Source: Tsukamurella conjunctivitidis
GTDB taxonomy: Bacteria; Actinomycetota; Actinomycetes; Mycobacteriales; Mycobacteriaceae
Length of the DNA stretch: 64,000 bases
Direction of reading: 5' to 3'
NCBI RefSeq assembly: GCF_007858475.1
Contig: NZ_VIGX01000010.1
Location: forward strand, 1 to 64,000
Shown here: one piece after another, positions 35,950 through 41,220 of the stretch
Layout: each line of letters begins with the position of its first letter
Position numbering within the stretch: position 1 is the stretch's first letter
Position numbers and translations under genes: made by a program
The notes under the pieces: model-generated
Told to the model about the DNA's origin: nothing
The model's database searches: none
What the model saw: only the letters and a program-made list of their open reading frames with translations

Positions 35950-38658
35950 GTGACTTCTGCGAACTCCTCGACCAAGCCCACGATGCTGCTGATCGACGGG
36001 CACTCGATGGCGTTCCGCGCCTTCTTCGCCCTCCCGCTCGACGGGGGACGCTTCCGCACGAAGTCGGGGCAGCCGACCAACGCCGTGTACGGCTTCACGT
36101 CGATGCTGATCAAGCTCCTCAAGGAGGAGGCTCCCGGCTACGTCGCCGCGGCCTTCGACGTCTCCCGCCAGACCTTCCGCGCCGAGATGTACCCGGAGTA
36201 CAAGGCGCAGCGCTCATCCGCACCGGACGACTTCCGCGGCCAGGTCGACGTGGTGAAGGACGTCCTCGCCGCGATGGGCATCCCCACCATGGCGCAGGAG
36301 GGCTACGAGGCGGACGACATCATCGCCACGATGACCACGCAGGCCCAGGCGCAGGGTTTCAAGGTGCTCATCGTCACGGGCGACCGGGACGCGCTGCAAC
36401 TGGTCAACGACGACGTCACGGTCCTCTATCCGCGCAAGGGCGTCTCCGATCTGACCCGGTTCACCCCGGAGGAGGTGGAGTCGAAGTACGGCCTGAGCCC
36501 GTCGCAGTACCCGGACTACGCGGCCCTGCGCGGCGACCCGTCGGACAACCTGCCGGGCATCCCGGGCGTCGGCGAGAAGACGGCCGCGAAGTGGATCCGC
36601 GAGTACGGGAACCTCGAGGGTCTGGTCACGAACGTCGACAAGGTCAAGGGCAAGGTCGGCGATTCGCTGCGCGAGAATCTCGCGACGGTGCAACTCAACA
36701 GGCAGATCACCGAGATGGTGCGCGATATGACCCTGCCGTACGTGCCGGAGGACCTGGCGCTGCAGCCGTGGAACCGCGAGGCCATCCACCAACTCTTCGA
36801 CGATCTCGAGTTCCGCGTCCTGCGCGAGCGCATCTTCACCGAACTCGCCAGCGCCGAGCCGGAGGCCGACGAGGGCTTCGAGATCTCGGGCGGCATCGTT
36901 GCGCCGGGCACCGTCGCCGAGTGGCTCGCCGAGCACGGCGCTTCGGGCGAGCGGTCGGGGCTTGGCGTGATCGGCCCGGAGGTCGTGGTCGACGGCGACG
37001 CGGAGGCGGTCGTCATCGCCGCACCCGACGGCGAGGGCGGGTACATCGAGCTGTCGTCGCTGACCCCGCACGACGAAGCGGCGCTCGGCGCCTGGCTGGC
37101 GGACGAGGCACAGCCCAAGGCCGCGCACGAGGCCAAGTGGGCCATGCACGCGCTCGCGAGCCGCGGCTGGACCCTCGGTGGTCTGACGTCGGACACGGCG
37201 ATCGCCGCCTACCTCGTGCGACCGGGCCAGCGGACCTTCAACCTCGACGACCTCTCGGTGCGGTACCTGCACCGGGAGCTGCGGGTCGAGGCGGCCGGTG
37301 ACGATGCACAACTGTCCCTTCTGGACGACCCGGACGATTCCGCGGGGGAGAAGGCGCAGCAGGCGATCCTGCGGGCACGCGCCGTCGCCGACCTCGCCGC
37401 CGCGCTCGACGACGAGCTGGACAACATCGAGTCGCGCCCGCTGCTCGCGGAGATGGAGCTGCCCTTGCTCCGCGTCCTCGACGTCATGGAGGGCACGGGC
37501 ATCGCGGTCGACACCGCACACCTCGAGGCGCTGCACAGCGAGTTCAGCGAGCGGATCCGCGCCGCGGAGGCGGCAGCGTTCGAGGAGATCGGGGAACAGA
37601 TCAACCTCGGCTCGCCCAAGCAGCTGCAGGTGATCCTGTTCGAGAAGCTGGGCCTGCCGAAGACGAAGAAGACCAAGACCGGCTACACCACCGACGCGGC
37701 CGCACTCGAGGCGCTGTACGAGAAGGAGCCGCACCCTTTCCTGCAACACCTGCTCGAGCACCGCGACGCGATGCGGCTCAAGGTCACGGTCGAGGGCCTG
37801 CTCAAGACCGTCGCCTCGGACGGCCGGATCCACTCCACGTTCAACCAGACGGTGGCAGCCACCGGCCGGCTCTCGTCGACCGACCCGAACCTGCAGAACA
37901 TCCCGGTGCGTACGGAGGCCGGTCGTCAGATCCGGCACGCCTTCGTCGCGGGCGAGGGCTACGAGACGCTGATGACGGCGGACTACAGCCAGATCGAGAT
38001 GCGCATCATGGCGCACCTGTCGGGCGACGCGGGACTCATCGAGGCCTTCAACACCGGCGAGGACCTGCACAATTTCGTCGGTTCGCGCGCCTTCGGCGTC
38101 CCGATCGACGAGGTCACCCCCGACATGCGCCGCCGGGTGAAGGCGATGTCCTACGGGCTCGCCTACGGGCTCTCCGCGTTCGGCCTGGCCGCGCAGCTGA
38201 AGATCTCGCGGGACGAGGCGAAGGAGCAGATGGAGGCGTACTTCTCCCGCTTCGGTGGCGTGCGCGACTACCTGCAGGACGTCGTCGTCGAGGCGGGCCG
38301 CAACGAGTTCACCGAGACGATCTACGGCCGCCGTCGCTACCTCCCGGATCTCACCTCGACCAACCGGATGCGCCGGGAGGCGGCGGAGCGGATGGCGCTC
38401 AACGCGCCGATCCAGGGCAGCGCCGCCGACATCATCAAGGTGGCCATGATCCGCCTGGACGAGAAGATCCGGAACGCCGGCCTGAAGTCCCGCAAGCTTC
38501 TCCAGGTGCACGACGAACTCGTGCTCGAGGTCGCGGCGGGGGAGCGGGAGCAACTCGAGGTCCTCGTCCGCGACACGATGGGCGGCGCCGCCGAGCTCTC
38601 CGTGCCTCTCGAGGTCTCGGTCGGGTACGGCCGCAGCTGGGATGACGCAGCGCACTAG
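35950..38658 (+). CDS. polA: DNA polymerase I
   Basis: The 902-residue protein has a 5'-nuclease domain (about 1-300; GDRDALQLVND and DPSDNLPGIPGVGEKTA near 195), a degenerate 3'-5' exonuclease region, and an intact polymerase domain. Motif A is DYSQIEMR (678-685), motif B RRVKAMSYGLAYG near 728, and motif C VHDELVLEV near 854. The acidic exonuclease residues are not visible, as in mycobacterial PolA, so proofreading is probably absent. It fills gaps in repair and replaces RNA primers. The start is a GTG 35 bp after the preceding gene. Confidence 0.97.
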   Translation: MTSANSSTKPTMLLIDGHSMAFRAFFALPLDGGRFRTKSGQPTNAVYGFTSMLIKLLKEEAPGYVAAAFDVSRQTFRAEMYPEYKAQRSSAPDDFRGQVDVVKDVLAAMGIPTMAQEGYEADDIIATMTTQAQAQGFKVLIVTGDRDALQLVNDDVTVLYPRKGVSDLTRFTPEEVESKYGLSPSQYPDYAALRGDPSDNLPGIPGVGEKTAAKWIREYGNLEGLVTNVDKVKGKVGDSLRENLATVQLNRQITEMVRDMTLPYVPEDLALQPWNREAIHQLFDDLEFRVLRERIFTELASAEPEADEGFEISGGIVAPGTVAEWLAEHGASGERSGLGVIGPEVVVDGDAEAVVIAAPDGEGGYIELSSLTPHDEAALGAWLADEAQPKAAHEAKWAMHALASRGWTLGGLTSDTAIAAYLVRPGQRTFNLDDLSVRYLHRELRVEAAGDDAQLSLLDDPDDSAGEKAQQAILRARAVADLAAALDDELDNIESRPLLAEMELPLLRVLDVMEGTGIAVDTAHLEALHSEFSERIRAAEAAAFEEIGEQINLGSPKQLQVILFEKLGLPKTKKTKTGYTTDAAALEALYEKEPHPFLQHLLEHRDAMRLKVTVEGLLKTVASDGRIHSTFNQTVAATGRLSSTDPNLQNIPVRTEAGRQIRHAFVAGEGYETLMTADYSQIEMRIMAHLSGDAGLIEAFNTGEDLHNFVGSRAFGVPIDEVTPDMRRRVKAMSYGLAYGLSAFGLAAQLKISRDEAKEQMEAYFSRFGGVRDYLQDVVVEAGRNEFTETIYGRRRYLPDLTSTNRMRREAAERMALNAPIQGSAADIIKVAMIRLDEKIRNAGLKSRKLLQVHDELVLEVAAGEREQLEVLVRDTMGGAAELSVPLEVSVGYGRSWDDAAH

Positions 38659-38690
38659 TACGCCGGGCCTGTGGCAATCTGGAATCATGC

Positions 38691-38844
38691 GACGTCGCTC
38701 GGGTGAGGCGGGATCCGCGCGATCCGTCCCAGCGGTAACCGCTGGGAGCACTGCACAGTCACTCCCTGCGTCCCGCGCCGGCCTGTGCGCTTCGCGCACC
38801 TCGCGGCGCTCCGGGACTCTGTTCCAGGTCACCCGAGCGGCGTT
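38691..38844 (+). ncRNA. Candidate retron msr-msd non-coding RNA
   Basis: GACGTCGCTCGGGTGA (38691-38706, a1) pairs with TCACCCGAGCGGCGTT (38829-38844, a2). This gives 16 contiguous pairs, of which 11 are an unbroken Watson-Crick run and two of the rest are G-U. Between them lie two msr-like hairpins: GGATC/GATCC (38711-38725) and a 9-bp stem TCCCAGCGG/CCGCTGGGA with loop TAA (38727-38747). A long interrupted msd-like hairpin follows (38770-38817; stems of 5, 6 and 6 bp around loop TTC). The G at 38707, directly after a1, is in the position of the retron branching guanosine. The RT start codon is 12 nt after a2. The structure is read by eye; transcription is unproven. Confidence 0.62.
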
Positions 38845-38856
38845 CGCATCCCGCGC

Positions 38857-40134
38857 ATGACGGCCGTCGAGATCGTCCGGGGGCTGCCGCGGGCACAGCG
38901 GTACGCCGTCGCCGGCCGCGTCGTCTCCCTGACGGAGGACCTCTGGGCCGCCGACGTGATCGCGCCGCTGATCCGCGGCGCGGTGCCCGACGAGCTGGTG
39001 GATGCCGCCGTGCAGGCGCTTCTCGCCGGGCACCCGGAGCCGCCGGTCAGGTTCGTCGACGGCGACGTCCTCCAGTCTGGCCCGGGTCCGCTCGTGGCCG
39101 CGCTCGACGGGGTCCGCATCGTCGTCGCGCTCGAGCCCGCCGGCCCGGGCGACGTGCCCGGTCTGGCTCTGCCCGATGTCGCGGCGGTGACGCGACTGCT
39201 GGATCTGACCGTCCCCGAATTGGAGTGGTTCGCCGACCACGGGATGTGGTTACGGCACGCGCGGCCCCCTCTGCGGCATTACCGCGTCTCACGGATGGAC
39301 AAGCCGGCCGGCGGGATCCGGATGATCGAGGCTCCCAAGCCGCGGCTCGCCGAGGCGCAGCGGCGGATCCTGCGCCGGGTGCTGGACCCCGCCGGCGCGC
39401 ACCCGGCGGCGCGCGGTTTCCGGCCCGGCGGCTCGGTCCTCGCCTACGCGGCACCCCACGTCGGCGCGAGGTCCGTAGTCCGGCTCGACCTCCGCGACTG
39501 CTTCTCGACGGTGACGGTGCCCCGCGTCCGGAACGTCTTCCGTCGGTTGGGCTACTCGGCCCCGGTGGCGGGCGTCCTGGCGGACCTGTGCACCGTATCG
39601 ACACCCGCCGACGAGCTCCACGGCCTCGACCCGTGGCAGGCGGCGACGATGCGATCGCGACATCTCCCGCAGGGCGCCCCCACCTCGCCCGCGTTGGTGA
39701 ACCTCGCACTCCACCGGCTGGACGCACGGCTGACCGGTCTGGCCCGCGCGCAGGGCGCGCGGTACACCCGGTACGGCGACGATCTCGCCTTCTCCGGCGC
39801 GCTCGACCCGGCGCTGATCGCCGCGGTGGTACCGAAGATCGTGGCGGCGGAGGGTCTGTCGGTGAATCCCCGGAAGACCCGGATCATGCGGGCGGGCGCG
39901 CGGCAGGAACTCGCGGGCCTGGTGGTGAACGCCCGCGCCCAGATCCCGCGCTCCGAGTACGACGCTCTGCGCGCCCTGCTGCACAACGCGGCCCGGTCCG
40001 GCGGCGAGATTCAGAACCGCGACGGGCACGACGACTTCCGCGCCCACGTCTACGGCCGGATCGCCTGGGTCGCGCAGGGCAACGACGCCCGGCGCGAGCG
40101 CCTGCTCGCCATGGCCGCGCGCGTGCGGTGGTGA
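38857..40134 (+). CDS. Retron-type reverse transcriptase
   Basis: The 425-residue protein has an N-terminal extension (about 1-112) without a known domain. The RT domain follows: KPAGGIRMIEAPKPRLAEAQ, GFRPGGSVLAYAAPHVG, motif A RLDLRDCF (Asp211), LPQGAPTSPALVNL, and motif C YTRYGDDL (Asp308, Asp309). The C-terminal thumb has LAGLVVNARAQIPRSEYDAL and GRIAWVAQG as in retron RTs; the usual VTG triplet is LAG here. The ATG at 38857 is chosen over a GTG at 38785, which would overlap the structured RNA. No maturase or HNH domain suggests a group II intron. Retron-like is the best call. Confidence 0.87.
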   Translation: MTAVEIVRGLPRAQRYAVAGRVVSLTEDLWAADVIAPLIRGAVPDELVDAAVQALLAGHPEPPVRFVDGDVLQSGPGPLVAALDGVRIVVALEPAGPGDVPGLALPDVAAVTRLLDLTVPELEWFADHGMWLRHARPPLRHYRVSRMDKPAGGIRMIEAPKPRLAEAQRRILRRVLDPAGAHPAARGFRPGGSVLAYAAPHVGARSVVRLDLRDCFSTVTVPRVRNVFRRLGYSAPVAGVLADLCTVSTPADELHGLDPWQAATMRSRHLPQGAPTSPALVNLALHRLDARLTGLARAQGARYTRYGDDLAFSGALDPALIAAVVPKIVAAEGLSVNPRKTRIMRAGARQELAGLVVNARAQIPRSEYDALRALLHNAARSGGEIQNRDGHDDFRAHVYGRIAWVAQGNDARRERLLAMAARVRW

Positions 40135-40195
40135 GCATCCGCGGCCCGGCGCGACCGCGCGGAGAATGTCGGTGGCGTGTGGCATCTTCTCCCGC

Positions 40196-40600
40196 ATGAC
40201 CGATCGAACACTAACCCTTCTCGGCCTGCGGATACCGCGCATGCCGAAGCCGGACCCGATGCGGGTCGCCTGGTACGCCCAGATCCCGGTCGCCGCGGTG
40301 ATGTTCGCCGCCGCCCTGTCTCCGGTCCGGTTACCGTCGGTCGTCATCGGTGTCGGCATCGGCGCCTGCGTGTTGGGCGTGGCATCGGTGTTCCTCGCGT
40401 GGCGCCGCCGTCAGGTGTCGTCCTTCGCGGCGCCCGTGGCGGCCACGGTCGTCGCGCAGGCGCTCCTGAACGCCGTCGTCTTCGCGTCGATGCCCTTCCG
40501 GGGCGGTGGCCCGACTACGGAGAGCCGGATCCTCTGGGGATTCTGCGCGGTCGTTCTCGTCATCAACAGCGCCTTCACCCTCGGCACCTGGCGCCGGTAG
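40196..40600 (+). CDS. Small four-helix membrane protein, possible retron partner
   Basis: The 134-residue protein has four hydrophobic segments (about 24-41, 46-68, 75-98 and 110-132) with short basic loops (AWRRRQ, GTWRR). It starts 61 bp after the RT stop on the same strand. A longer start (ATG 40166 or GTG 40172) lies nearer a GGAGA ribosome-binding site and may be real. No family is recognised. Some retrons pair with small membrane effectors, so a role with the RT is possible but rests only on position. Confidence 0.65.
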   Translation: MTDRTLTLLGLRIPRMPKPDPMRVAWYAQIPVAAVMFAAALSPVRLPSVVIGVGIGACVLGVASVFLAWRRRQVSSFAAPVAATVVAQALLNAVVFASMPFRGGGPTTESRILWGFCAVVLVINSAFTLGTWRR

Positions 40601-40611
40601 CGTTGGGCGCT

Positions 40612-41220
40612 GTGTTCACCATCGGCTTCGACCTGGACCTGACGCTGATCGATTCGCGGCAGCGCATCCTGACCGCCGCCCAGCGCGCGTTCGCCGACCT
40701 CGGGCACGCGGTGGACGATGCGCCGCTACTGCCGCACATGGGCGTTCCGATCGACGTCGTCGCGCGTGAGGTGGTACCGGGTATCGATGGCGAGCGGTTC
40801 CTGCGGCGCTACCGTCTGCACTACGACACGGACACGACCACTCCGGTGCCCGTACTCCCGGGCGCGGAGGAACTGCTCGCGGCCATCCGGGCGGCAGGCG
40901 GAACGTCGGTGGTCGTGTCGGCGAAGCAGCAGGCGGCGGCCGAGCGGGCGGTCGCGGATGCGGGACTCGACGTCACCGCCGTCGTGGGTGGCCACTTCGG
41001 TGAGCGCAAGGGCGAGGCGCTACGGCGTTTCGGGAACGTCCGCGCCTACCTCGGAGATCACGTCGAGGACGCGTCGGCGGCCCGGGCGGCGGGGTGCCCC
41101 TTCATCGGCGTCACGACGGGCGAGTTCGACGACGACGCCCTCACGCGGGCCGGGGCGGCGTGCACCGTCGGGCATCTGGCGGACGTCGTCGCCCTGCTCC
41201 CGGGGTACGCGCGCCGCTGA
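40612..41220 (+). CDS. HAD-family hydrolase (phosphoglycolate phosphatase-like)
   Basis: The 202-residue protein has HAD motif I FDLDLTLIDS (residues 7-16), motif II in TSVVVSAK, a lysine in ERKGEALRRFG, and motif IV YLGDHVEDASAA. The layout and cap suit a Gph-like small-molecule phosphatase. The start is a GTG at 40612, 11 bp after the membrane-protein stop. The substrate is unknown. Confidence 0.85.
   Translation: MFTIGFDLDLTLIDSRQRILTAAQRAFADLGHAVDDAPLLPHMGVPIDVVAREVVPGIDGERFLRRYRLHYDTDTTTPVPVLPGAEELLAAIRAAGGTSVVVSAKQQAAAERAVADAGLDVTAVVGGHFGERKGEALRRFGNVRAYLGDHVEDASAARAAGCPFIGVTTGEFDDDALTRAGAACTVGHLADVVALLPGYARR

Follow-up and report, generated by a model that had tools for sequence, protein, structure and literature searches.

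A locus in the genome of Tsukamurella conjunctivitidis is, judging by its sequence and that of its relatives, almost certainly a retron. It lies in the window, the whole stretch of 64,000 nucleotides that was analysed, and was compared with 102 relatives drawn from 114 genomes positive for its reverse transcriptase (RT), giving 103 loci in total. We consider it very probably a solo retron: a covarying msr-msd RNA and a retron RT, mostly present once per genome, with no linked effector. A retron had been proposed here in the first-pass annotation. We looked for a long helix without compensatory changes, an RT that groups with group II intron or DGR enzymes, and orthologous RT genes without the inverted repeat. 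None of the three was found, and the proposal is strongly supported. By RT, Tsukamurella species are the nearest named relatives, and the surroundings in the window resemble those in an annotated record of T. tyrosinosolvens. Table 1 lists the parts of the locus.

Table 1. Features of the retron locus and its flanking genes (nucleotide positions in the window unless residues are given).
Feature	Position	Strand	Basis or remark
polA	35950-38658		upstream neighbour of the retron
-10-like element CAATCT	38675-38680	+	directly 5′ of the RNA
a1, 5′ arm of the long helix	38688-38706	+	pairing and covarying pairs, helices 1 and 2
Predicted branching G	38707	+	invariant in 56/56 copies; position by analogy with known retrons, from the available text of PMC6868368
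msr hairpin 1	38711-38725	+	two-sided changes in 4/5 pairs
msr hairpin 2	38728-38746	+	100% of cells paired; two-sided changes in 4/8 pairs
Putative template of the reverse-transcribed DNA, ~70 nt	38755-38828	+	ends approximate; from known retrons
Interrupted msd hairpin	38776-38808	+	two-sided changes in 7/11 pairs, helices 5 and 6
a2, 3′ arm of the long helix	38829-38848	+	pairing and covariation
Predicted retron reverse transcriptase, 425 aa	38857-40134	+	RT core from ~residue 141
Fast-evolving N-terminal domain of the RT	residues 1 to ~104	+
Membrane protein, 134 residues	40196-40600		~60 nt behind the RT
HAD hydrolase gene	~40612-41220

The msr-msd RNA

Comparative analysis identifies the stretch between polA and the RT gene as an msr-msd RNA of ~163 nt (~38687-38848). 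Its folding energy has a z-score of -3.6, and 0/200 dinucleotide shuffles were as good. The 5′ arm GACGTCGCTCGGGTGA (38691-38706) pairs with TCACCCGAGCGGCGTT (38829-38844) through 14 Watson-Crick and 2 G-U pairs, and this a1/a2 helix can be extended outward, with a bulge, to 38688 and ~38848. The helix had originally been argued from the 16-bp length of its arms, an argument that did not hold up: each of 20 Markov resamples of the window contained 0-5 pairs of strictly pairing 16-nt arms, 80-200 nt apart and with at most one mismatch, while the same rule missed the a1/a2 pair of the window itself. Since chance yields such arms and the strict rule omits this pair, arm length by itself proves nothing, and the case for the helix therefore rests on comparative covariation.

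The consensus fold that RNAalifold derived from 56 non-redundant RNA copies has six helices with 39 pairs, comprising a two-part a1/a2 helix, two msr hairpins and an interrupted msd hairpin. Standard pairs made up 94.6% of the cells, and 29/39 pairs showed two-sided changes, including 9/9 pairs in the outer and 5/6 in the inner part of a1/a2. None of 500 shuffles reached any of the five measures, and pairing fell to 35-51% when partners were slid by 1-3 columns. G38707, immediately 3′ of the a1 helix, and the GTC at the a2 boundary (38828-38830) are both invariant in 56/56 copies; the branch site reads GAG, mostly followed by A or G. The layout first read from the window, which runs from a1 through the G, the msr hairpins, the msd hairpin and a2 to the RT, is the consensus structure across its relatives. 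Three RNAs of genus g6 (L107, L120 and L125) have an insertion of ~35 nt within msr hairpin 2.

The reverse transcriptase and its N-terminal domain

The protein encoded behind the RNA, named 'reverse transcriptase family protein' in RefSeq, is a retron RT according to profile, sequence and structure comparisons. Its best PADLOC matches were RT_other (522 bits, E-value of 4e-157) and RT_outgroup (496 bits, E-value of 3e-149), both spanning the protein from residue 18-19 to the C-terminal end, and lower scores were obtained for RT_XIII (298 bits over residues 107-422), RT_III-A (218 bits) and RT_II-A (192 bits). Retron models also ranked best in NCBIfam, where none reached its cut-off (top 160 of 600 bits); group_II_RT_mat (48 bits) and Drt2 (32 bits) were both far below theirs. 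The top PDB sequence matches were retron RTs (Ec86, E-value of 1e-32). In structure searches with an AlphaFold2 model (mean pLDDT 84, from an alignment of 6 sequences), ranks 1-18 were all retron RTs, followed by group II RTs from rank 19, DRT2 at 26 and a DGR RT at 35. Profile scores and structure ranks speak against a group II intron, DGR or DRT enzyme. A quick tree, which does not resolve the order among retrons, set the RTs off from two RTs of group II (SH-aLRT support of 99%). Profiles, tree and structures thus place the enzyme with retron RTs and away from those of group II introns.

The YGDD active site and the retron-type C-terminal region reported for the window are present, and YGDD, YADD or FADD was found in 102/103 RTs, the sole exception being interrupted by a stop codon. 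Likewise, the LAG noted in place of VTG in region Y recurs in 63/103 relatives, with LTG in another 30/103. Region X carries xAxxH or a near variant in 67/103 RTs and falls outside the pattern used in 36. For retron RTs in general, the accessible part of one publication gives frequencies of 47% for VTG and 59% for NAxxH (PMC4244168). The RT domain is under purifying selection, with a dN/dS of 0.11-0.25 in nine comparisons.

How far is this retron new? PADLOC RT_other and RT_outgroup, with which the family was compared by profiles only, represent retron RTs without an assigned type. As both match the RT and its Pirellulaceae relative, this RT branch is already in the defence database. The original description of the retron as undescribed therefore holds only in part: the protein is covered and would be a known kind of retron RT without assigned type, while the RNA has no match in Rfam and may be new by that measure alone. 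RT_XIII was the third-best match, and its 298 bits against the 522 of RT_other reject membership of type XIII; a planctomycete RT (L007), unlike that of the window, scores best against RT_XIII.

The N-terminal extension noticed in the first reading is real, as the alignment to the Ec86 RT begins at residue 142 of the window protein and residue 48 of Ec86. It is ~95 residues longer than the pre-core region of Ec86, which has no extended N-terminal domain. Databases already contain this extension, since most of it falls within the two PADLOC matches to the full-length protein; queried alone, it had no PADLOC profile match. Modelled alone, the domain had a mean pLDDT of 83 and was confident over most of its length, with three helices followed by two short strands, one more helix and one more strand in a winged-helix-like order. 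PDB searches with it yielded only weak hits, winged-helix proteins among them. Across 91 RTs, W30 and P63 reach a conservation of at least 95%. Over the same nine comparisons, residues 1-110 had a dN/dS of 0.34-1.11, against the much lower values of the RT domain, so that the region may be nearly unconstrained. A predicted fold combined with fast evolution is what contact with phage or partner proteins would lead one to expect, the alternative being near-neutral drift.

Distribution and chromosomal setting

The RT was found in 114/401 sampled Mycobacteriaceae genomes and as a single match in 111 of these 114. A profile built from copies with a common core motif detected the RNA 5′ of the RT in 103/103 loci, so that the inverted repeat stands beside every orthologous RT gene examined. 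Searches with a covariance model identified one RNA copy in the source genome, and RNA in 11/16 Tsukamurella genomes, exactly those with the RT. The same model detected RNA in 41/121 family genomes, including 40/40 that are RT-positive. In the 41st, G011 (L174), the copy is weak (39 bits) and is followed by pieces of the RT in two frames; this locus is, from its sequence, a decaying retron. In-frame stops interrupt the RT match in five genomes (L002/G158, G049, G192, G230 and G251), which together with G011 indicates repeated loss of the retron.

Beyond the Mycobacteriaceae, few genomes of the phylum have the RT. A phylum-wide sample yielded RT matches in 5/396 genomes, 2 of the 5 outside the Mycobacteriaceae; of these two, G700 contained the RNA (E-value of 7e-8) and L157 had no RNA match to the covariance model. 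On the 46.8-kb Dietzia plasmid pII (L150), too, the RNA stands before the RT (E-value of 8e-30), so the cassette is able to reach mobile DNA. Genes nearby on this plasmid include merA and those for a transposase and a recombinase. Weak RNA matches in the correct position, each unconvincing singly, were found in two Burkholderia replicons (E-values of 0.003 and 0.067) and a Pirellulaceae MAG (E-value of 0.009), and a Methylobacterium relative had no RNA match upstream of its RT.

The retron had been described as inserted behind polA. For Tsukamurella this proved correct, with polA 19-2420 nt upstream of the RT in 11/11 loci; it does not extend to other genera, where the retron occupies many different chromosomal settings that are stable within each genus. 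The polA-HAD gap could be measured in 3/5 RT-negative Tsukamurella genomes: it is 55-62 nt in two, which represents the empty site, and ~657 nt in the third. Since the contents of the gap differ among genomes, the polA-HAD interval of Tsukamurella carries varying cargo. A DnaE-type polymerase gene lies near the retron in 17 loci of four genera (L046-L048, L050, L052, L056, L064, L068, L071, L076, L087, L096, L098-L100, L104 and L106), as identified by clustering with one case Pfam-tested, and recA adjoins it in L062. With polA, these are perhaps three settings of DNA repair or replication, though chance may account for them. The replicon NZ_LR134447.1 (L149), named T. tyrosinosolvens plasmid 5, contains polA as well as rpsA and probably represents a chromosomal fragment.

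This distribution bears on whether the element serves its host at all. A retroelement that is mostly selfish or neutral, has no function for the host and persists by chance and slow horizontal transfer would fit the patchy occurrence in the family, the varied chromosomal settings, the Dietzia plasmid copy, the several broken copies and the lack of a partner gene. We nevertheless consider this improbable, given the strong constraint on both the RNA and the RT domain, the single match in nearly all RT-positive genomes and the stability of the settings within genera, exemplified by polA in all Tsukamurella loci.

Neighbouring genes and a proposed mode of action

We sought a partner gene by comparing all six-frame ORFs of at least 70 aa within ~5 kb of the RT. 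The only ORF family common to all 103 loci was the RT itself, with the shadow frames inside it; no other neighbour cluster extended beyond 20/103 loci, and no effector family was linked to the RT within this range and size limit.

Membrane effectors occur in some known retron types, and the membrane protein behind the RT had been suggested as the effector. This would make the locus a tripartite retron in which the RT-msDNA particle holds the membrane protein and frees it on phage infection. The protein starts ~60 nt behind the RT and, within Tsukamurella, occurs only in RT-positive genomes (5/11, against 0/5 RT-negative ones, hence 5/16 overall); a small multi-TM ORF stands immediately behind the RT in 4/11 Tsukamurella loci. 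However, it is missing from the other 6/11 RT-positive Tsukamurella genomes. Elsewhere, its matches were weak and confined to 10 other genomes of 151 (the best, with an E-value of 7.6e-6, covered part of a 503-aa frame), and neither PADLOC nor Pfam has a family that it matches above cut-off. Nor are small membrane genes in excess: a small multi-TM ORF starts at most 150 nt behind the RT in 7/103 loci, 4 of them with the membrane-protein family of the window, compared with 283/7426 random anchors (3.8%), and outside Tsukamurella the figure is 3/92. With no linkage across relatives, the suggested effector role did not survive the comparison, and we regard the tripartite reading as very unlikely. 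The membrane protein may instead be cargo of the variable polA-HAD interval.

Two other genera have their own genes close behind the RT. In genus g6 (L113, L116, L120, L124, L125 and L133), a 91-aa hydrophobic protein, which we take to be reminiscent of YrhK, follows at 60-72 nt. In genus g11, a ~139-aa protein follows at 68-80 nt in 8/8 loci (L076, L087, L096, L098, L099, L100, L104 and L106) and forms no cluster elsewhere among the 103 loci.

A -10-like element directly precedes the RNA. The pattern [TCG]AnnnT occurs 9-14 nt before an (A/G)TG at the a1 start in 97/98 loci, a raw count without a shuffled control, where the 98 are those of the 103 loci that have this triplet. The transcript therefore probably starts at a1. 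From the same triplet, a frame stays open through the stretch in 94/98 loci, and in the window its stop overlaps the RT start, which would suit a gene for a short peptide whose translation is coupled to that of the RT. Measured against the msd anchor, however, this frame lies in phase 0, 1 and 2 in 39, 14 and 39 of the 98 loci (6 unscored), so no peptide is conserved; together with the covarying base pairs, this refutes a peptide gene in place of an RNA as the main explanation, leaving it a negligible chance.

Retron-Eco1 (Ec86), the top PDB match of the RT in both sequence and structure, has the same order of a1, G, msr hairpins, msd hairpin, a2 and RT. Ec86 has a linked effector, whereas none was found beside the RT of this family. 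In kind, the Mycobacteriaceae retron resembles the myxobacterial retrons Mx162, Mx65 and Sa163, beside which it is set by description only; according to the available text of PMC6868368, these have N-terminally extended RTs and appear to be mostly inherited vertically. Their branch context is CAGC or GAGC, whereas in this family the GAG mostly precedes A or G, and the DNA of Mx162 is 162 nt long compared with the ~70 nt expected here. PMC6868368, a 2019 review, restricts experimentally validated retron RTs to Gamma- and Deltaproteobacteria and lists actinobacterial retrons as bioinformatic predictions. Retrons without a clear neighbouring effector are mentioned in the accessible part of a review (PMC8867640).

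By analogy with known retrons, msDNA is in all likelihood produced in nature. A promoter just 5′ of a1 would give an RNA starting at a1, which would pair with a2 while the msr hairpins are held by the RT. DNA synthesis would be primed from the 2′-OH of G38707, and copying would start beside a2 and proceed back through the msd hairpin, yielding a branched msDNA of ~70 nt. The RT would remain bound, forming an RNA-DNA-protein particle with a plausible role in phage defence or in sensing DNA or the state of single-strand-binding protein. Because there is no neighbour gene to guard, this particle might act through the N-terminal domain of its own RT and/or a host protein encoded elsewhere, a step that is the weakest of the scheme and that we put forward tentatively, at somewhat less than even chances.

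More speculative still, and on balance rather unlikely, is that the family belongs to a solo-retron branch spanning phyla, in which a fast-evolving, winged-helix-like RT domain replaces a separate effector and RT-bound msDNA serves as a sensor or regulator and not as the guard of a neighbouring toxin. If true, its targets would be phage proteins, single-strand-binding protein or repair, in lineages where the retron is resident within the Mycobacteriaceae.

For the Mycobacteriaceae, a complete cassette of RT and covariation-backed msr-msd RNA is now available. The family is widespread and lineage-resident, its RNA is clear and no effector is linked to it, so that the role of effector-less retrons becomes testable. 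As a natural actinobacterial cassette of high GC content, it also lends itself to DNA production in laboratory strains of Mycobacterium or Rhodococcus.
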